From positions 1 through 64,000 of the forward strand of contig JAKJHU010001655.1 of the NCBI GenBank assembly GCA_022316685.1: DNA of 64,000 bases. Reading direction: 5' to 3'. Shown in pieces: positions 36,594 to 49,620 of the stretch (positions are counted from its first letter, which is position 1; every line of letters begins with the position of its first letter). Below the pieces are notes generated by a model that was not told the DNA's origin, ran no database searches, and was given only the letters and a program-made list of their open reading frames with translations. Origin of the DNA: Progne subis subis (lineage: Eukaryota > Chordata > Aves > Passeriformes > Hirundinidae). A program made the position numbers and the translations under genes.

Positions 36594-39533
36594 ATGGTGT
36601 GGATCTGGTGGCCTGGCACATCAGAGCCACAGAAATATGAGGCTTTAGTTGATACTGGTTCGCAGTGTACACTGATACCATCAGAATATGTGGGGACAGA
36701 ACCTATTTCCATTGCCGGGGTGACGGGGGGATCACAGGAACTGACTCTGTTGGAAGCCGAGGTGAGCCTGACCGGGAAGGAGTGGCAGAAACATCCAATT
36801 GTGACTGGCCCAGTGGCCCCGTGTAATTTGGGCATAGACTTCCTCCGGAATGGTCATTACAAAGACTCTAAAGGACTCAGGTGGGCTTTTGGAATAGCAG
36901 CTGTGGAGGCAGAGGGCATTAAGAAATTGAATAACTTGCCTGGACTGTCGGAGAACCCATCTGCAGTAGGACTTCTAAAGGTAAAAGAGCAACGAGTTCC
37001 AGTTGCCACCTCGACGGTGCACCGCCAACAGTATCGGACAAATCGAGATGCCATGATCCCCATCCACAAGATGATCCGTGAGCTGGAGAGCCAAGGGGTG
37101 GTCAGCAAAACCCACTCACCCTTCAACAGCCCCATCTGGCCGGTGCGCAAGTCTGACGGAGAATGGAGATTGACTGTGGACTACCGTGCCTTGAACGAAG
37201 TGACTCCACCATTGAGCGCTGCTGTGCTGGACATGCTGGAACTCCAGTACAAGCTGGAGTCCAAGGCAGCAAAATGGTACGCCACCATTGACATTGCTAA
37301 CGCATTTTTCTCCATTCCTCTGGCTGCAGAATGCAAGCCTCAGTTTGCTTTCACCTGGAGGGACGTGCAGTACACCTGGAACCGACTGCCCCAGGGGTGG
37401 AAACACAGCCCCACCATCTGCCATGGATTGATCCAGGCTGCACTGGAAAAGGGTGAGGCTCCGGAGCACCTACAGTATATCGATGACATCATTGTGTGGG
37501 GGAACACAGCAATGGAAGTGTTTGAGAAAGGAGAGAAGATCATCCAAATTCTCCTGAAAGCTGGTTTTGCCATCAAGCAGAGCAAGGTCAAGGGACCTGC
37601 CCGAGAGATCCAGTTCCTGGGAGTAAAGTGGCAAGATGGACGGCGGCAGATTCCCACTGAGGTCATCAATAAGATAACCACAATGTCTCCACTGACCAGC
37701 AAGAAGGAAACACAAGCTTTCCTAGGCGCCATAAGTTTCTGGAGAATGCACATTCCTGAGTACAGCCAGATTGTGAGCCCTCTCTACCTGGTCACCCGCA
37801 AGAAGAACGATTTCCACTGGGGCCCTGAACAGCAACAAGCCTTTGCCCAGATGAAGCAGGAGATCGCTCATGCAGTGGCCCTTGGCCCAGTCAGGACGGG
37901 ACCAGATGTGAAGAACGTGCTCTACTCAGCAGCCGGGAACAATGGCCTGTCCTGGAGCCTTTGGCAGAAGGTGCCTGGGGAGACTCGAGGCCAACCACTG
38001 GGATTCTGGAGCCGAAGCTACAGAGGGTCCGAAGCCAACTACACTCCAACAGAGAAGGAAATCTTGGCCACCTATGAAGGAGTTCAAGCTGCCTCAGAGG
38101 TGATTGGCACAGAAGCACAACTCCTGCTGGCACCTCGACTACCGGTGCTGGGGTGGATGTTTAAAGGAAAGGTTCTCTCCACCCATCATGCCACCGACGC
38201 CACGTGGAGCAAATGGATTGCCCTCATCACTCAGCGCGCCCGCATTGGAAACCCAAATCACCCTGGGATTCTGGAAATAATTACAAACTGGCCGGAAGGT
38301 GAAAACTTTGGTCTCATGGATGAAGAGGAGCAGGAACAAGTGACACGTGCTGAAGAAGCTCCACCATACAACCAACTGCCAGCAGAAGAAACTTGCTACG
38401 CTCTTTTCACTGACAGTTCCTGCCTCATCGTTGGGATGAAATGAAAGTGGAAAGCAGCCGTATGGAGCCCCACACGACAGGTTGCAGAAGCCACTGAGGG
38501 AGAAGGTGGGTCAAGCCAACTTGCTGAACTCAAAGCTGTTCAACTGGCCCTGGACATTGCTGAAAGAGAGAAGTGGCCAAAGCTCTACCTCTACAATGAT
38601 TCATGGATGGAGGCCAATGCTCTGTGGGGTTGGCTGGACAGGTGGAAAAAGGCCAATTGGCAGCGCAGGGGAAAGCCAATCTGGGCTGCAGATGAGTGGA
38701 AGGACATTGCCACTTGGGTAGAGAAGCTACCTGTCAAAGTCCGTCATGTAGATGCCCATGTCCCCAAGAGTCGGGCTAATGAGGAGCACCGAAACAACGA
38801 GCAGGTAAATCAAGCTGCAAAGATAGAGGTGTCAAAGACAGACTTAGATTGGGAACACAAGGGAGAGTTGTTCTTAGCTCGATGGGCCCATGATGCCTCA
38901 GGTCACCAGGGCAGAGATGCCACCTATAAGTGGGCCCAAGACGGAGGGGTGGATCTAACCATGGACAGTATTTCTCAAGTTATCCATGACTGTGAGACGT
39001 GTGCTGCCATCAAGCAGGCCAAGCGAGTGAAGCCCCTATGGTATGGCGGGCGATGGTCCAAGTATAAGTACGGGGAAGCCTGGCAGATTGACTACATCAC
39101 CCTTCCCCAAACCCGCCAAGGCAAATGCTACGTGCTGACCGTGGTGGAAGCCACAACTGGATGGTTGGAGACCTACCCTGTGCCTCACGCTACTGCCCGG
39201 AACACCATTCTAGGCCTTGAAAAGCAAGTTCTTTGGAGGCATGGTACCCCTGAGAGGATTGAGTCAGACAATAGAACTCATTTCAAGAACAGCCTCATCA
39301 ACAACTGGGCTAGGGAACATGGCATTGAGTGGGTGTACCATATCCCCTATCATGCACCAGCTTCAGGGAAAGTAGAAAGATACAATGGACTGCTAAAAAC
39401 CACCCTAAAAGCACTGGGTGGGGGATCATTCAAAAATTGGGAGCAGCATCTAGCAAAGGCCACCTGGTTAATTAACACCCGAGGTTCCACCAACAGAGCA
39501 GGCCCTGCCCAATCTGCGCTCTACATACAGTAG
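36594..39533 (+). pseudogene. pol: Class III (ERVL-like) pol with a single in-frame stop
   Basis: One reading frame interrupted only by TGA at 38442-38444. Domains in order: aspartic protease with LVDTGSQCTLIP (about 36640-36680); reverse transcriptase with LPQGWKHSPTICH and the catalytic YIDD (about 37477-37488); RNase H with DSS, AELKA and YNDSW, where two usual residues are changed (T to N, and D to N in NEQVNQAA); and integrase with its H-H-C-C finger (HDASGH, CETC) and D, D, E residues in QIDYI, ESDN and GKVERYNG. The YIDD box and lack of a downstream env point to class III. The stop falls in the RNase H start, where a basic residue is expected, consistent with CGA-to-TGA decay. Gag and leader indels make it defective overall. 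Confidence 0.85.
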
Positions 39534-39876: not shown

Positions 39877-40532
39877 TGTCCTAGGGTAACTTTATGATGC
39901 TTGTATCCCCAATCGTCTGTTCTGTTTGTGCTGTATATTGAGTCCTGTGCCTTTAAGACTGGTTCTAAGAGCAAGGAGAAGCGCGGAGTTGTTTTGAGAA
40001 AACTGCCCAACTCCTCCCCATTCTTCTGCAGACAGTAGTGTTCAGCGGAAGCTTAGAGAGACTGCAGGACAAAGATCTTTTTGCTTTTAGTTAGTTTCAG
40101 CTAGCTAGAGCAGAGAAGTTCCCTGGACTGTTTTTTTCCTTTTTCTTGGAACTGTTTAAACCTGCTCTGGACTGAAAACCCAGGGGAGCACTGGGGGCTG
40201 CACCTGCGGCCCACCGGGGCCTGGACCTCGGCATTTTCCAGCAGCGCCGGAGGGACTGGGACTGAGGAGAGACTGAGAGAGAGCCGAGCTCCACCCACGG
40301 CAAGGACTTTCTCAATTTGCCATCTCACTCCAGAACGAGAGGTTTTATTGTTTAATATTAATTCATTCTTTATACTTGTATGCACTTTATTTGTTTAGTA
40401 AAATAGTTTTTTCCACTTTCCTCCAAAAAGATTTTTTTTTCGGACTGGTTGAAGGGAGGGGCCACTTGAGTTTGCTTCCCAGAAGGATCCTATACAGGGG
40501 TTTTCCCCAAAATTTGTCTCCAAACCAGGACA
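39877..40532 (+). mobile_element. LTR (TGTCC...GGACA family), copy 1
   Basis: 656 bp with perfect 5-base inverted ends TGTCC/GGACA, preceded by a polypurine tract. Closely similar to 47797-48430 and to the fragment at 1926-2148. Contains a TGCCTTTAAGACTGG block and a T-rich tail part. Confidence 0.85.
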
Positions 40533-41263
40533 GACCAATTTGAGATCAGCTGCTCTGGCCAGAAATGTTCCTCTTATCTTGTCCGGAGCTGACCATCTGG
40601 CTTGTTATCTTCACAGGGCTTGCGGTGTTCACTGCATGCAGAAGGCTTACTGTGACCCTGTTCAGCATGAAACCACTTTGTCAGCAATGCACGAGTGAAA
40701 ACCACCCCAGCTTGGCTCTTACTTGGCAGCTGCTGCAGCCACACAACTTAGTAAGGTATCTTTGGGTTTTCACCAGCTTAAGTCTTTAGTAAATAAATTC
40801 CAAGTGGACACTAAACAAGTATTTCACTAAGAGATGATGAAATGTTAAAATTAAAAACAAGTCAGATTGCAGATGTAATTATACTACATTAGAAACTCCA
40901 GCTGGTGGGGATCCATTCACTGTATAGAGAGAAATTAGTAATCAAGGTAATTACAAGGACAGAACATTTGTTTCCTGCATGCTTTTCCAGGCTTGGAACC
41001 AACAGAGTTGACTACATGGAGAGTTGACTAGGGTGAACTCGGAACTCACTCTCTCAGGCAGGAGACTAGTTAAGAAGTGTTACTGATAACAAAGAAGAAA
41101 AATTATACAACATTGATTATTACAAATTTATTATTATTATTACTACTATAATTATTATTATTACTTTGTTCTCTTCTGCTTTTAGCATTTGTCTCTTACA
41201 AGTCTTCATCCATTCCTGTAGAAACCTAACTCTTTTTCCATTCCCCTGTGGCAGCTCCCATCC
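40533..41263. other. Unassigned stretch between LTR and CEPT1 copy
   Basis: No gene recognised. Contains a simple ATT-rich run at 41118-41165 that could be the worn tail of the minus-strand retrocopy to its right. Confidence 0.4.
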
Positions 41264-42195
41264 CTAGTGATGGTTCGAGGGCATGGGGCAGCCCTTGATG
41301 CAGAACACGTGGATGTGCAGGTGGGCAGCAATTCTGGCTGCACACGCTGACACAGTATCGGAGCAGGTCAGACAGGGACAGGATCAGGGCAATCCAGTGG
41401 ACAATATACTTATCAATAAAGCTGTTAAAATGCTTGGTCAAGGAACAGCAATGCTGGGCTTATGAATGCTGTGTCATATAAATACATTTCACTCTTGGTC
41501 ACGTGGGCAACCACCAGTTGATTTGTGATCTTGGCAGACACAAAGCCAAAAGTCAGTATGTAGAGGCAGAGATGCCTCTCAAAGAGCTGCACAGCAGATT
41601 TCTTGTAGATCATTGCAGACAAGACAATCACAGAGCCAATATGGAGAAAAGGTGAGAGGACACTTGTTCCTGCTGAAGTGGATCTATTTTTGCCAACTGC
41701 ACCTGAATATTCAGTCTTGGAATCAGAGACTGCTAAAAAGATGTTCTTCCAATCACTGCCAGTAAATGCATGATTATTATGAAGATTTGTACTTCAGTCA
41801 CATCAGTCATGCCAAAGTGCAGAGTTCTTGAGACGTACGTCTGTCAGTGTGCACAGTAAAACATGAATGCCACAGCAAAACAACAGAAGAACATCCCGTC
41901 AGGGTTGGTGTCCAGCTGCACAACAATACAAGTTCCCAAAACCACAAAGACTGTGGACAATGAATCACAGCTATGATTAAAAAGCTCTCCTAATGGAGTG
42001 CTGCTATTTGTCCTTATTGCTTGCTTTCCATCTATTGCATCCAGGAACTGGAATGCCACAGGCACAAGCAATGAATGTCCAGGAAGGCGCCTGCCCTCTA
42101 TCTGTTGGGCAGTAACATACTAAAAACAGAATTGTAAATATATTTATTAACAATCTGATGATGGGGATCAGACGGGGGGCAGTCCAGGCTGGAGA
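41264..42195 (-). pseudogene. CEPT1: Retrocopy of choline/ethanolamine phosphotransferase (CEPT1-like)
   Basis: The parent enzyme transfers phosphocholine or phosphoethanolamine to diacylglycerol in ER/nuclear membranes. The copy is intronless and begins mid-protein ([17 protein letters not shown]). It includes the CDP-alcohol phosphotransferase signature region DAIDGKQA..., which is damaged: the motif Arg after DGKQA is Ile, and the first motif Asp of the GELFD box is Asn. It continues through [39 protein letters not shown] and LLRYCVSVC to a C-terminal SNHH-type end with TAG at 41264. Several frameshifts and a missing block near 41690-41760 make it non-functional. It is joined upstream to a retroviral gag at about 42195, without the CEPT1 5' half. 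Confidence 0.8.
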
Positions 42196-43130
42196 ACTGA
42201 TATCTGCAGTATGAATCCAATCTAACATTGTTTGAGCATTTTCAGATTTCAAGCCGTGCTCCTTTATTGTTGTTTGTGGGGGGTTTTTTTGGTTTTTTTT
42301 TTTTTTTTTTTTGGTTTGTTTTTTGTTTTTTGTTTTTTGTTTTTTTGCTTGTTGCAAAATTTTCCATTCATGCTGCTCACACACAGGATTGCCATCTCTG
42401 AACATGACAGGACACGCTACAGGACATGCCATGTGTCCTGTGGGTTCCCACTGTCTTTCTAGTATAACATCACGTATAATTCCAGACCATCGAGTCATGG
42501 CGGGGGACGGGCGAATGCGTTGCCTGGGGACTGCTTTGTGCAGTTTGTTCTAGCAATTGTTTCATTGGAGTTAACTGGGAGCTGAAAGATGTTGGCTTCT
42601 CCTGATTTTTAGCATTTATTGTAGATAATTCTTGGGCTTTTTCTAGCAGCAGCTTAGTTGCTCCTTCAGGCGCTGCATCACTGCCTGAATTTGATCAGTC
42701 AATTCTTTTAAACCAGTCATGGGTTCTGCTGGGGGAAGCAGTACTCTGTCATCGGGGTCCTCCTCTAATTCGTCCGGCAGCGGAACTTTGTCAGGGGAAG
42801 GTGGTCGACAGTAGGGTTCACAGGTTCCCCTCTCTTGGTTGACTGGTGTCTCTTCGGGCACAGCTGGGAAAGGGGGGGCACATGGCACATGCGTTGTGGG
42901 AGTGGCAGCAGCGCGGGAGTGGAGACGCCGGGGCCGTGCAGACCCCCGGGGGTCTCTTCCTCCTCATCCTGACTTGCTGTGGGGCAGGGGGCGGGGGCGC
43001 TTAGGTGACGGGGGCGGTCCGTGTGCCGGGAGCGGCGAGCCAGGCATTGGCCAGTGAGGGTGCCGGGGCGCTGGAGGCGGCAGGAGGGCACGGCAGGAGC
43101 CCTGCGGCGCCTCCTCAACTTCACAGCATC
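42196..43130 (-). pseudogene. gag: Betaretrovirus-like gag fragment joined to the CEPT1 copy
   Basis: On the minus strand, a Pro-rich frame (42643-43124) is followed by the capsid N-terminus ([20 protein letters not shown]) and [25 protein letters not shown], which is capsid helix text. This passes straight into CEPT1. An A-rich tract on this strand (T-rich at 42286-42346 on +) is inserted between the two capsid pieces. Confidence 0.65.
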
Positions 43131-43559
43131 AGGGGTTGTTAAATGTCCATTTCCCTGCGCCCAGTTAATCAGATTTTGCAGTACTTTTTCTGCTACTGCT
43201 TTTCCTCTCTCAGAGTATAATAATAAGCAACTTCAATGCGGCAGCAAATTCGCACTCCATGCTTGCCTCATCAATGGGGCAGGGAAGGGAGTACTCAGAG
43301 CTTTCCACCTTTTTTCAAGAAACTGCCCCCTGTTCCCCTTACCAGCTCAGCCTTGCACTCTTTGCAAGGACGGCGAGCTTCTATCTCAATGCTGATGCAT
43401 CTCTCAGCAGATCAGCGTCTGACTGCTGTTTTCTGGAGGGTCTCACCTCAATGCAGCTGCATCTGTCGGTGAGTTCAGCATCCAACTGCTCAGCATCCCA
43501 CCGCTAATTTTCTCCTCCAGATTGTCACCCCAAGGTCTGATGTTCAGTGCCAATTAAAG

Positions 43560-43960
43560 GTGATTTTGAAAAAAACCAGAGGGAAGAGCCGGAGTCAAAC
43601 ACCTTCTTCACAGAAGTAGTGGTGAATGCTCATTTTATTGAGGGTACACAGGGTTCTTTTATACATACATCATTCTAGTGCATAAGCTGTTCACATGGCA
43701 TTTTACTACATGTCATTGGCTGTCTCCTCCTGTCCACGAGCTCCAGGCAGCTATACTATTGGTTAGTGTTATCTCCATAAGTATTCCTTTGCAGTTACCT
43801 GTTTACACTTTGTTGAGAGGCCATCAGCTTGTTCCCAGGCTCTTTGTCCTGGTTCTCAGGCTCAACGTCCTTGGCAGTGCTAAAACAACAGAACTTTCCA
43901 AGCACTGGAAGGCCTCTCTGCGTCTGTCTCCAAAAATCCTGCTACAGTCAAGGAACAAAC
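43560..43960 (-). mobile_element. LTR-like promoter/polyadenylation region on minus strand
   Basis: On the minus strand TATAAAA (43663-43657) is followed 18 bases later by AATAAA (43639-43634), the spacing of a retroviral TATA box and polyadenylation signal. It lies upstream of the minus-strand gag. A TGTAGCAGGATTTTTGG-type start near 43945 is plausible. Ends are not certain. Confidence 0.5.
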
Positions 43961-43969
43961 AATCGTGCT

Positions 43970-44272
43970 TCAGCTGATTGTCATCAAAAACAATCCCGAG
44001 ACGCTCCACGAACTGCAACAGCTCTGTGGTTCCATTAATTGGGTTCGACCCCTTCTTGGAATTTCCTCAGAAGACCTCGCTCCGCTTTTTAACCTTCTGT
44101 GAGGGAGCTGCGAAGTCAGTTCTCCTAGGAGCTTGACCCCTGAGGCAAGAAAGGCAATTACCTGCATCCAAGAGGTTCTGTCAGCCTGACAGGCCCACAG
44201 GTATGATCCATCTTTGCCGTTTCTGCTTGCAGTGTTAGTAGAGTCCCACATTGGAGTGGACTGATTTTTCAA
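43970..44272 (-). other. Uncharacterised minus-strand frame next to LTR-like region
   Basis: A 100-codon frame (GSYLWACQADRTSWM) between the two head-to-head ERV pieces. It might be a worn env fragment. I cannot assign it. Confidence 0.2.
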
Positions 44273-44274
44273 TG

Positions 44275-46021
44275 GGACCCGGACTTAAAAGACCAGTTGC
44301 TCATCCTCGAATAGGTTTTCCTTCAAGCACAACCAACTAATACAGTAACCACACCGCAAGGAACCATGGCAGCAGTCATCTGTAAGGGCAGGGCTCGCTT
44401 CTGCTCTCTTGTGGGGTGTGACTTTGCATGCATCTACATGCCATTGGCAACTACCGAGGAGCTAGAGTTTCTGCTCCAAAATAATGACAACCTTCAGTTC
44501 GCCCTAGATATCTATCCAGGAAAATTTCCATCCATATCCTGGCCACAAATTATTTAAAGCAGAACTTCATTTGGTTCCCAAATTCATTCAAGGTAGAACT
44601 CCTCTTGAGCTGTGACAGTCTTTACAGACGGCTCAGGGTCTTCTCATAAGTCAGTCATGACTTGGAAAGACACTAGGACACAGAAGTGGGAGTCTGACGT
44701 CCGAGTAGTGGAAGGATCTCCACAAATTGCTGAGATGGCAGCCGTTGTCAGGGCATTAGAGAAGTTCAAAGACCAACTGTTTAACCTAATCACAGATTCA
44801 GCATATGTAGCTGGTATAGCTATGAGGGCTGAACATGCCTTTTTAAAGGAGGTGTCAAATAGAAACCTTTATAATTTGCTTTCTAAACTGGTTTATCTTA
44901 TCTCCCACAGAAAGCAACCATATCATGTCATGCATGTGAGGTCGCACACTGACCTTCCCGGTGCTATCGTGGACGGCAACAAGAGAGCAGACGCACTGGC
45001 AATGGCGGCACAAACACCAGCCCTCCCAGACACGTTCCAACAAGCCAAGCTCTCCCATCAATTTTATCATCAGATTGTCCCAGCACTACTGAGGATGTTT
45101 CACCTAACCAGGGAACACGCCAAAGCTGTGGTAGGATCATGTCCACAATCATATCTGATGTGTTCGTGTCTACCAATCATACCAGGTGCCCTTTTTAGAC
45201 AAAGGCATCAACCCAGGAGGGCTCAATAGTAATGAACTGCGGGAGATGGACGTTACACATGTTCCATCTTTTGGTAGGCAGAAGTATATTCACATGTCAG
45301 TAGATACATTCTCAGGTGCAGTTTTCACCTCAGCACATGCAGGTGAAATCATCTGCTTTGTTAAAAGACATTTCTTATTGGCCTTTGCAACTCTGGGAAC
45401 TCCCCAGAAAATTAAAACAGACAACGGCCCCGCCTACTCCTCAAACAGCTAAAGGCATTCTTCCAAGATCGGGGCATCAGACATAACAAATGGATACTGT
45501 AGTCTCCCACAGGCCAATCAGTCACTGAGAGGACACATCAGACTCTTAAGAGAGTCCTTCACCAACAGCGGGGAGGTTCAGAGACACTTCCTCCCGTTGA
45601 GAGGCTCTGCAAGGGACTTGATGTAATTAACTTTCTAAATTGTTCAAGCACTGAGCCTAATGCCCCTGTCATCAGGCACTTCTCAAATTCGGCCCGAGCT
45701 AAGCTTGAAGAGAAGCTGCCTGTGTTGATCAAGGACCCAGAAACACATCAAATATCAGGCCCTCTTCGGTTGATTACCTGGGGTAGAGGGTACACATGCA
45801 TATCCATGCCTACAGGCCCTAGGTGGCTTCCTGCAAAGAACATCAAACCTTACCTAGGACCCATAGATACTAATAAAGCCAATTCTGAGCAAAATACAGT
45901 CACCAAAGGTGCAGCAGACAGCCACTTGGAAGAGGAGGAGAAGATGGCCGGTCCCACAAAGGACAGCTCAGTGTCCTGTGACCAGACAAGAGACAAGACA
46001 AGCAAGGCCTACCGGATGTAA
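44275..46021 (+). pseudogene. pol: Betaretrovirus-like pol, 3' part (RT end, RNase H, integrase)
   Basis: Begins inside the RT/RNase H connection (TTEELEFLLQNNDNLQFALD). RNase H follows at 44612-45180 with FTDGSGSSHKS, AEMAAVVRAL, TDSAYVAG and NKRADALA. Integrase follows from about 45060 with its N-terminal zinc finger degraded; the catalytic Asp residues are in SVDTFSGAVF and KTDNGPAYS. A frameshift comes at about 45450, and then a C-terminal DNA-binding part (DPETHQISGPLRLITWGRG, near 45735-45800). The glutamate of the catalytic triad is not visible. Gag and most of RT are absent. It is defective. Confidence 0.75.
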
Positions 46022-46222
46022 CAAAAACTAAGAAAAGAAGTGATTTCTTTCCTACCCTTTTATTCCTTACCCTTATTTCCTTACCCTCTCCCACAAATCC
46101 TTTTACCCAAGCTATGTTGTTAACTTTATTTAAAAATATCTCTTCTATTTGTTAAACTACTAAATTGTTGGGTTTTATTGATATAGAACACTGACCCACC
46201 GTCCTGCAAAAAGAGACAAAGT

Positions 46223-46886
46223 ATGGAGACAAGACATATTCTCCTGCTGATTGTTTTTGTCATCACCACCCAGACCGTGGTCGGCAATAGAACACCCAGA
46301 AACAGATGCTGCAGTGCAGAAGATGCTGCGATACGCTATTGCCCAGCATGACAAAAGTAATTACCATCTGCTCCCAAGCCAAATTGTAAAGGTCATAAAG
46401 GCAGAAAAGCAAGTTGCAGGAGGAATCAAATATAACATAGTGGTGAAATTAAAACAAGATAACAAGTATGAACTATGTAACTTAGTGGTATTTAATACAC
46501 CATGGAAGAACTCAATACAAATACTAAAAGACCAATGCCAAAAGAGTGAGCCCCCAACCAACACTCCTGATCCGAAAAAGACTGATATAACCACTCAAAA
46601 ACCTCTAACAACTGACTTTAGACATAAAAGTGAAGACCAAGTCACAGAACAGATAGCTGCTGAAAAAATTTATGAAACTCCTTATTTCTTTGTTATTACT
46701 GTAACCATTCTTTTACTGCCTTTATCCATCTATCTTTATCATTTATATCATCGCAAGCATGTTATTAACGCTGTCTTTTCAGTTTTTCAACAGGGAGGAG
46801 AGAACAAACTAGACAAAGACAGTAAAGGATCAGAGGACGATCCAAATAACCTGCCAAACACCCCCCTTGAAGGGACAGCAGTTTAA
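46223..46886 (+). pseudogene. Cystatin-like, membrane-anchored gene inside an ERV
   Basis: Lies between the pol end and env. ATG at 46223 opens a classical signal peptide (METRHILLLIVFVITTQTVVG). A one-base frame change near 46285-46300 then separates it from the rest, which is open from about 46283 to 46886. That part shows a cystatin fold pattern: a helix (DAAVQKMLRYAIAQHDKSN), the QVAGG first-hairpin motif (QxVxG class), a PW second hairpin (FNTPWKNS), and two Cys residues 20 apart (C-x19-C, at YELC and KDQC). That spacing equals the second disulfide of type 2 cystatins. The first disulfide loop is shortened away. A Thr/Lys-rich stalk, one membrane helix (FFVITVTILLLPLSIYLY) and a 45-residue acidic tail follow. 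Cystatins inhibit papain-like cysteine proteases such as cathepsins. A role on the cell or particle surface is inference. Confidence 0.65.
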
Positions 46887-47036
46887 ATTTCTTTTATCTT
46901 ACCCCCTCAAAAACTTCCCCAGATACCTGTTTCCCATACCCCTTCTTTTCCTAAAGTTCCCTAGTGCCTAAATAATATGTTGATAGTTTAAACTAGTTTT
47001 TCTTTTTAGAAGCAAACCCCAAAGGACCCCTCTGAG

Positions 47037-47796
47037 ATGAGAGGCAGTTACCATGTCACAGTGATGCGGATGCTCCTCACACTCCTCATGCTCCTCAACA
47101 TCAAAGCATGGAAGATCGGACAACCACCAGAAAATGTGTGGGTGACACTTGCCAAGACCCTCCGGCAAGACAATTTGTGCCTGTCCATGGGCTCCGTCAG
47201 CAGTCCTCTGTCGTCGTGCCTGGTAGGAATCCCATTCGGAATCAACGAGCCATCACCTCTGCATCCCTTTGCAGGGAACTGGCCTGCCCTGCCCACCGCA
47301 GAGAAAGGACCAGCCCGAGAGCCTGGGAACAGTGGGTGAAGCTCATACCCAAAGCTACAACAGACGCTCACAAAGAAAACCCAGTAGCAAACTCCGAGTC
47401 CCAAGAGCTTGATCTGCTTGTCTCAGCAAAAGCTAGTTATTGTTTTAATTTTTACTTTCAAAATATGGCCTCTAGTTACAAAAATCAAAGTAAATGCCCT
47501 AAAAAATTTACAATTTGGTCAACTGGTGCAACTACACAACAAAAATTCCATTTGACACTTCTGGCTTCCTTATTCCCAGGGCACTTCCCAAGGACGTGTT
47601 CCTAATTTGCGGCGATAGGGCGTGGGCAGGAATCCCTTCCCGCATCCAAGGAGGTCCATGCACCTTTGGCCGACTTACAACACTCACCCCAAACATTACT
47701 CTCTTACAAGAATGGAAACAAAAGAATAAATTTGCCCGTCCAAAAAGATCCTATACCCAATTTGATGAAAATTTTGATGCCACCCTTTTTGATTGG
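47037..47796 (+). pseudogene. env: Env surface-subunit fragment, alpharetrovirus-like
   Basis: The first frame (47037-47339) has a leader-like hydrophobic start (MLLTLLMLLNIKAWKIGQPPENVWVTLAKTL in outline) and NLCLSMGSVSSPLSSCLVGIP, a motif of avian alpha-type ERV envs. Frameshifts follow. The frame 47515-47817 has LPKDVFLICGDRAWAGIP, a basic cleavage-site-like RPKRS near 47737-47751 and a few transmembrane-subunit residues, and then runs into an LTR at 47797. Fusion peptide, heptads and membrane anchor are missing. Confidence 0.65.
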
Positions 47797-48430
47797 TGTC
47801 CTTGGGTGACTTTATGATGCTTGTATCCCCAGTCATCTGCTCTGTTTGTGCTGTATATTGAGTTCTGTGCCTTTAAGACTGGTTCTAAGAGAAAGGAGAA
47901 GCATGGAATTTGTTTTGAGAAAACTGCCTGACTGCTACACATTCTTCTCTGGACGGGTGTTCAGCAGAGATTTTTTTTGCTTTTAGTTAGTTTCAGCTAG
48001 CTAAGGCAGAGAAGTTCCCTGGACTGTTTTTTTTCTTTCTTTTTTCTTGGAACTGTTTAAACCTGCTCTGGACTGAAAACCCAGGGGAGCACTGGGGGCT
48101 GCACCTGCGGCCCACCGGGGCCTGGAGCTCGGCATTTTCCAGCAGCGCCGGAGGGACTGGGACTGAGGAGAGACTGAGAGAGAGCCGAGCTCCACCCACG
48201 GCAAGGACTTTCTCAATTTGCCATCTCACTCCAGAACGAGAGGTTTTATTGTTTCATATTATTCATTCTTTGTACTTGTATGCACTTTGTTTGTTAAGTA
48301 AAATAGTTTTTTCCACTTTTCTCCAAAGAAGTTTTTTACCGGACCGGTTGGAGGGAGGGCCACTTGGGTTTGCTTCCCAGAGGGATCCTATTCAGGGGTT
48401 TTCTCCCAAATTTGTCCCTAAACCAGGACA
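47797..48430 (+). mobile_element. LTR (TGTCC...GGACA family), copy 2
   Basis: 634 bp, same family and orientation as 39877-40532, with internal indels (one near 47960-47975 removes about 30 bases). No purine tract and no matching target-site duplication. It interrupts env on its left and meets a satellite exactly at its right end. Confidence 0.85.
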
Positions 48431-49620
48431 GAGTGATTGAGACCAAATGGACGGAGATGAAATGAGGCACAAAGAAAAGGACCCAAACTTGCCAAAAGTA
48501 CTCCAATTCAAATGCTGCAATCAGGCAAGAAGTGGAAATAAAGGAAGGAAGGAGAGAAAATGAAATAGAGGAAACGCAAACTTAAAATGAAAAAGCAAAA
48601 AATGTTTAAAGCATGTGAAAACAAAAAGTGAATGGGATGACAAGAAGTGCAGGGAAAGGGGTTGAAGCTTGCCCAATTAATCTTCATTGAAATGGCAAGA
48701 TTTCATTCCCTTTGGAAAGTCTTCCTTTCGGGAAAGGGAATGAAATCTTGAAACAGGGAACAAAGTCCAACAAACGCTCAAGAAAGGAGATATTGTGAGA
48801 AACAGTGCGAATGAAAACAACCGAGATAATCTTGAACCAGAGTGATTGAGACCAAATAGACAAAGATGAAATGAAGGTTACTGAAAAGGACCAACACTTG
48901 CGAAACATACTCCAACTCAAATTCTGCTATTAGTCAAGAAATGGAAATAAATGATGGAGAGGGGAAAAAAAAATCTAAAAAATGAAAACTTAAAATGAAA
49001 AAGAGAAAATTTTGAAATTATGTGAAAAGGAAAGTGTTCCTTTCAGGAAAGGGAATGAAAACTTGAAAACAGGGAACAAAGTGTAACAAATGATGAGGAA
49101 AGGAGATGTGAGGAGAAACAATGTGAATGAAAACAACCGAGATAATTTGGAACCGGAGTATTTTGGCCAAATGGACTAAGATGAAATGAGGGGCAATGAA
49201 AAGGAAAAATACTTGGCAAACGTACTCCAATTCAAGTGCTGTAATCAGGCAAGAAATGAATATAAGTGAAGGAGAGGAAAAGAAATGGAAGAAATGCAAA
49301 CTTAAAACGAAAAAAGGAAAAATTTTGAAAGCACATGAAAATCACAAAGTGGATGGTATGACAAGAAGTGCAGGGAAAGGGACAGAAGCTTGCCCAATTA
49401 ATCTTCCTTGAAACCTTGAAAAGAGGGAACAAAGCCTAACAAACTCTCAGGAAAGAAGATACTGTGAGAAACAGTGCAAATGAAACAACCGAGAATATTT
49501 GGAACCAGAATGATTGAGACCAAATGGACTGAGCTGAAATGAGGGGCACTGAAAATGACCAACTTTTGCCAAAATACTCCAATTCAAATGCTAACATCAG
49601 GCAAGAAATGAAAAAAAGAA
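48431..49620. repeat. A-rich tandem satellite, units of roughly 320-410 bp
   Basis: GATTGAGACCAAATGGAC-type unit starts lie near 48431, 48839, 49157 and 49507. Each unit repeats GCCAAAAGTACTCCAATTCA and CTTGCCCAATTAATCTTC-type phrases. The plus strand is almost free of pyrimidine runs. No coding sequence. Confidence 0.75.

Follow-up and report, generated by a model that had tools for sequence, protein, structure and literature searches.

A membrane-anchored, cystatin-like gene between pol and env of a decayed endogenous retrovirus in Progne subis subis

Introduction

Positions 1 to 64,000 of contig JAKJHU010001655.1 from Progne subis subis (assembly GCA_022316685.1), here called the window, include a decayed endogenous retrovirus (ERV) in which pol and env are separated by an extra gene. 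Its product is homologous to cystatins and carries a membrane anchor, and the present copy has a frame break close to its start. Taken together, these features favour one history: a family-2-like host cystatin was probably taken up by a class II ERV lineage, where it would have served as an accessory gene for a tethered inhibitor of cysteine proteases.

A shortened cystatin domain

The body of the extra gene is an open reading frame (ORF) of 211 codons. In a phmmer search of the PDB, the best solved relative of its product is chicken egg-white cystatin (E 8.8e-11), with 30 of 78 aligned residues identical (38%) in two blocks of 18/52 and 12/26. The search gives 36 PDB rows at E up to 10. To judge by their names, 34 belong to cystatins or to binders derived from them, and the remaining two are receptor fusions, whose matches (E about 0.8) fall on the membrane helix. 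The Pfam families Cystatin (PF00031, 32.1 bits, cut-off 22.2) and SQAPI (PF16845, 33.1 bits, cut-off 31), which form one clan, are both matched, placing the domain in the cystatin superfamily, while Prenylcys_lyase gives a sub-threshold match only.

The domain resembles chicken cystatin (family 2; PDB 1a90, 1cew) in its core of helix and sheet, its hairpins and its C-x19-C pair. A preliminary description of the DNA had named three motifs, of which two hold as described: the PW of the second hairpin (NTPWKN here) aligns to SIPWLN of chicken cystatin, and the C-x19-C pair has the spacing of the second disulfide in that protein. The third, QVAGG, is present and keeps the Q and the final G, but it is not a strict QxVxG hairpin since the central V is replaced by A; the chicken sequence is QLVSG. 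The largest difference lies between the two aligned blocks, where 4 residues stand against 24 in chicken cystatin, so that about 20 are gone. Type 2 cystatins carry their first cysteine pair in this stretch, and chicken egg-white cystatin has two disulfides; the domain described here retains the second pair only, and its shortened core recalls that of stefins and plant cystatins. Judged by sequence, the product can be firmly assigned to the cystatin superfamily, as a member that is not a textbook type 2 cystatin.

Structure prediction had been proposed as a check, with the lack of a cystatin fold as the outcome that would speak against the assignment. A cystatin fold was obtained: the model of the domain, built from the single sequence, packs one helix on a four-stranded sheet (H8-20, E33-43, E46-55, E60-71, E76-85) with a predicted local distance difference test score (pLDDT) of 71. 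Foldseek returns a best E of 1.3e-3 for this model, hence no match at E up to 0.001, and among the 50 rows listed the first 37 are cystatins, cystatin-derived scaffolds, one SQAPI and one designed cystatin fold. On its own the predicted fold is moderate evidence, weaker than that from sequence.

Stalk, membrane helix and a possible inhibitor

Downstream of the domain follow a stalk, a single membrane helix, on which hydropathy and the full model agree in line with the preliminary description, and a cytoplasmic tail. The same description had called the tail acidic; the tail is there, but with seven D+E against five K+R it is only mildly so. Its terminus GTAV (46872-46883) fits the class I PDZ-ligand pattern, which may be chance. 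An N-glycosylation pattern does not occur in the ORF. With its membrane helix the product departs from family 2, whose members are soluble secreted proteins.

This anatomy suggests a type I membrane protein that would hold its cystatin domain on a stalk outside the cell or in the endosomal lumen. There the N-terminal segment and the QVAGG and PW hairpins could insert into the cleft of papain-like proteases such as cathepsins and inhibit them reversibly, and we therefore regard a tethered inhibitor of cathepsin-like proteases as the predicted function. It would act on infected cells or on particles, where it might lessen either the attack of cathepsins on Env or the endosomal processing of antigens. 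Whether the benefit was protection of Env or particles, or reduced antigen processing, is a guess, and the present sequence cannot separate the two. A captured cystatin domain may instead have had a role other than protease inhibition, for example as a cell-surface ligand or a partner of Env. The cystatin superfamily includes non-inhibitory members, and the absent central V of QVAGG and the missing first disulfide loop would fit such a role; retention of Q, G, the PW hairpin and the second cysteine pair despite only 38% overall identity argues against it. We consider this unlikely, at perhaps one chance in a few, and favour the inhibitor.

The provirus around the gene

The extra gene had been placed between pol and env of an ERV, and the surrounding matches bear this out: Pfam identifies integrase upstream and avian gp85 downstream (Table 1), and assigns no env family to the region of the gene itself. 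On the plus strand the interval 39877-48432 reads reverse transcriptase (RT) thumb, RNase H, integrase, cystatin gene, gp85 and long terminal repeat (LTR).

Table 1 Features of the provirus and of the extra gene, all on the plus strand
Feature	Position	Strand	Evidence or remark
5' LTR	39877..40534	+	Direct repeat with 47797-48432; begins TGTCC
pol fragment: RT thumb	43884..44102	+	Pfam RVT_thumb 7.1e-14; PDB 7sr6 'Polymerase' 6.2e-05
pol fragment: RNase H and integrase zinc-binding domain	44609..45229	+	Pfam RNase_H 7.7e-15, Integrase_Zn 1.4e-07
pol fragment: integrase core	45159..45452	+	Pfam rve 1.7e-12
pol fragment: C-terminal part of integrase	45503..46021	+	Pfam IN_DBD_C 3.7e-07; PDB integrase 7usf 6.2e-11
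Extra gene: start codon and signal-peptide-like stretch	46223..46285	+	Read directly; frame differs from that of the cystatin core
Extra gene: 211-codon open frame (cystatin domain, stalk, membrane helix, tail)	46251..46886 (end of stop)	+	
Cystatin domain, in order: helix, QVAGG hairpin, a short turn where the first-disulfide loop would lie, PW hairpin, C-x19-C	46296..46541	+	phmmer against PDB, Pfam, model with fold search
Stalk, 45 residues, Thr/Pro-rich	46542..46676	+	15/45 S, T or P
Single membrane helix, about residues 144-163	46680..46739	+	Kyte-Doolittle 2.0; helix with pLDDT about 90 in the full model
Cytoplasmic tail, 48 residues, terminus GTAV	46740..46883	+	
env start: signal peptide and N-terminal surface subunit (SU), later frame-broken	47010..47339	+	Open frame; identified from its position and by eye
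env SU: C-terminal part of avian gp85	47503..47817	+	Pfam Avian_gp85 8.5e-15
3' LTR	47797..48432	+	Direct repeat with 39877-40534; adjoins the SU remnant directly

The alpha/beta kind of pol and the gp85 SU mark a class II ERV with an alpharetrovirus-type env. The best PDB matches of the integrase are 7usf and 3jca and that of the RNase H is 7sr6 (3.1e-15), structures that presumably come from mouse mammary tumour virus (MMTV) and human endogenous retrovirus K (HERV-K); RNases H of the type found in xenotropic murine leukaemia virus-related virus and murine leukaemia virus (XMRV/MLV) match the RNase H fragment at about 4e-4 only. Together with chicken cystatin as the nearest solved relative of the extra gene's product, the avian gp85 match points to a bird as host. 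The start of env (47010-47339) has no Pfam match above cut-off. Since the gp85 remnant passes straight into the 3' LTR, the transmembrane (TM) subunit is missing. At the other end, gag, protease and the N-terminal part of RT were not recognised by eye among plus-strand frames of at least 35 codons in 40535-43880, and the sole plus-strand frame of that interval given to Pfam (43642-43974) had no match.

The alignment of the two LTRs has 630 columns and shows 34 transitions and 12 transversions, along with 34 gap columns; the Kimura two-parameter (K2P) distance is 0.078. If neutral change proceeds at about 2e-9 per site per year, such a divergence corresponds to an age on the order of 20 million years, a figure that is indicative only. 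The pol and env frames that flank the extra gene are broken as the gene itself is. The provirus is decayed and the present copy is dead.

Several other sequences lie in and around the provirus. In antisense, two pieces resemble CEPT1, a choline/ethanolamine phosphotransferase (41428-41793, E 6.7e-47; 41847-42119, E 1.5e-34; both minus strand, to 8gyw), and the minus-strand frames beside them look by eye like more of the same protein; this may be a second copy of a host mRNA within the provirus or a nested insertion. Minus-strand frames in 42470-43232 look Gag-like by eye, but none of the three given to Pfam scored above cut-off. The RNase H and integrase of a different retroelement (38445-39530, plus strand) lie directly before the 5' LTR, and degenerate direct repeats with a spacing of about 315-409 bases follow immediately after the 3' LTR (48429-49617). 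Distant from the provirus, a fragment at 1931-2153 is 86% identical to the 3' end of the 3' LTR.

Origin of the gene

How did a cystatin come to lie between pol and env? The core frame runs uninterrupted across the sites at which vertebrate cystatin genes have introns. A spliced host cystatin mRNA was thus probably taken up by an ancestral virus of the class II ERV lineage with an avian-type envelope, and the captured sequence would then have stayed between pol and env while the virus went through several replication cycles. Identity of only 38%, the lost first-disulfide loop and the anchor weigh against a known cystatin having been freshly retrocopied at this insertion.

Alternatively, the gene may be a host retrocopy that came to lie between pol and env by accident, when this provirus inserted or later, and that never worked as a viral gene. 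The antisense CEPT1-like sequence lies in the same proviral interval without an intron-sized gap between its matched pieces, and host mRNA copies therefore seem to enter this locus; moreover, the 64-kb window has a single copy of the cystatin gene. Against such an accident, the gene lies on the strand of pol and env and exactly in the gap between them, a poly-A run is absent from 46887-47000, and divergence from chicken cystatin is strong. The signal-peptide-like start and the anchor likewise argue against it, as vertebrate type 2 cystatins are otherwise known as soluble proteins. We judge a chance landing improbable, roughly one case in five, and hold to capture by the virus.

State of the present copy

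The preliminary description had noted a signal peptide followed by one frame break, and a signal-peptide-like stretch and a break are indeed found. The ATG at 46223 opens METRHILLLIVFVITTQTVVG..., which is signal-peptide-like by eye, in a frame that differs from that of the core, with an overlap of the two between 46251 and about 46348. Because similarity to cystatins begins at residue 16 of the ORF, that is at 46296 (phmmer, PDB), the break most likely lies upstream of this position. Translated from its first base, the range 46283-46886 of that description is full of stops, being shifted by one base from the core frame, although the feature itself is real. As the signal-peptide-like start and the core do not share a frame in the present copy, it would not be expected to yield the anchored protein.

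When the 988 bases between the end of the integrase frame and the env frame (46022-47009) were shuffled 5000 times with dinucleotides preserved and read in six frames, no shuffle reached an open frame of 211 codons (mean 75, maximum 196). When neutral substitution at half the LTR divergence was simulated, a mean of 0.91 stops accumulated and 40% of the runs had none; the open core frame is therefore no sign of recent selection. That the ORF has been co-opted and is now a host gene is disfavoured and very improbable: in its favour, the core has 211 open codons at an LTR divergence of K2P 0.078, but the start is out of frame with the core, an open frame needs no selection according to the 40% of neutral runs, and one break per about 660 bases is not unlike the neighbouring broken fragments of pol and env.

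Relation to known systems

The closest parallel is CrocERV29, a crocodilian ERV described as having captured a KIT-ligand mRNA between pol and env (PMC4299795). In both cases a gene of host origin, presumed so here, sits between pol and env and the viral frames around it have decayed, and here the ORF lies on the viral strand between integrase and env, as capture at this site implies. The two differ in that CrocERV29 carries a cytokine and is reported in nine copies with a retained ORF (PMC4299795), whereas the present case is a cystatin in one copy, with class II pol and avian gp85. By analogy with KIT-ligand in CrocERV29, capture of a spliced cystatin mRNA appears to be the most likely history. 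Host genes added while viral coding regions were kept are exemplified in the same source by src of Rous sarcoma virus and the cyclin ORFs of walleye epidermal hyperplasia virus (PMC4299795). These are growth genes, whereas the extra gene is of the protease inhibitor kind. In zebrafish ERVs, the interior between the LTRs is described as replaced by cellular genes (PMC8672886).

Virus-carried cystatin genes are known from the polydnavirus of a wasp, Cotesia congregata bracovirus, where they form a multigene family (PMC2553070). Cystatin 1, as modelled there, has both type 2 disulfides and QxVxG, unlike the product described here, and is reported to be an inhibitor (PMC2553070). The relevant passages of a phylogenomic study of cystatins find no transfer among eukaryotic hosts and one case of transfer from wasp to bracovirus (PMC2784779).

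In the open-licence literature of PubMed Central (PMC), title listings, partly incomplete, gave no title on a retroviral or membrane-anchored cystatin, and work on viral cystatins concerns, by title or abstract, mainly wasps, polydnaviruses and lepidopteran hosts. The word 'cystatin' is absent from the text of PMC4299795, PMC4272516 and PMC8672886, as are 'transmembrane' and 'membrane-anchored' from that of PMC2784779, and the passages of PMC10536682 on avian env recombinants hold nothing on extra genes.

Implications

On balance, and by a narrow preference, we think that a gene for a membrane-tethered cystatin was a genuine accessory gene in a lineage of bird-infecting retroviruses, where its product would have blunted cysteine proteases in endosomes or at the cell surface. 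If this is true, a captured and anchored protease inhibitor would constitute a new functional class among the host genes found in retroviruses, and cysteine proteases would be indicated as a pressure on such viruses. The host donor of the gene, its age and the selection acting on it would then be readable from bird genomes. The finding suggests that some retroviruses once had a protease shield of their own.
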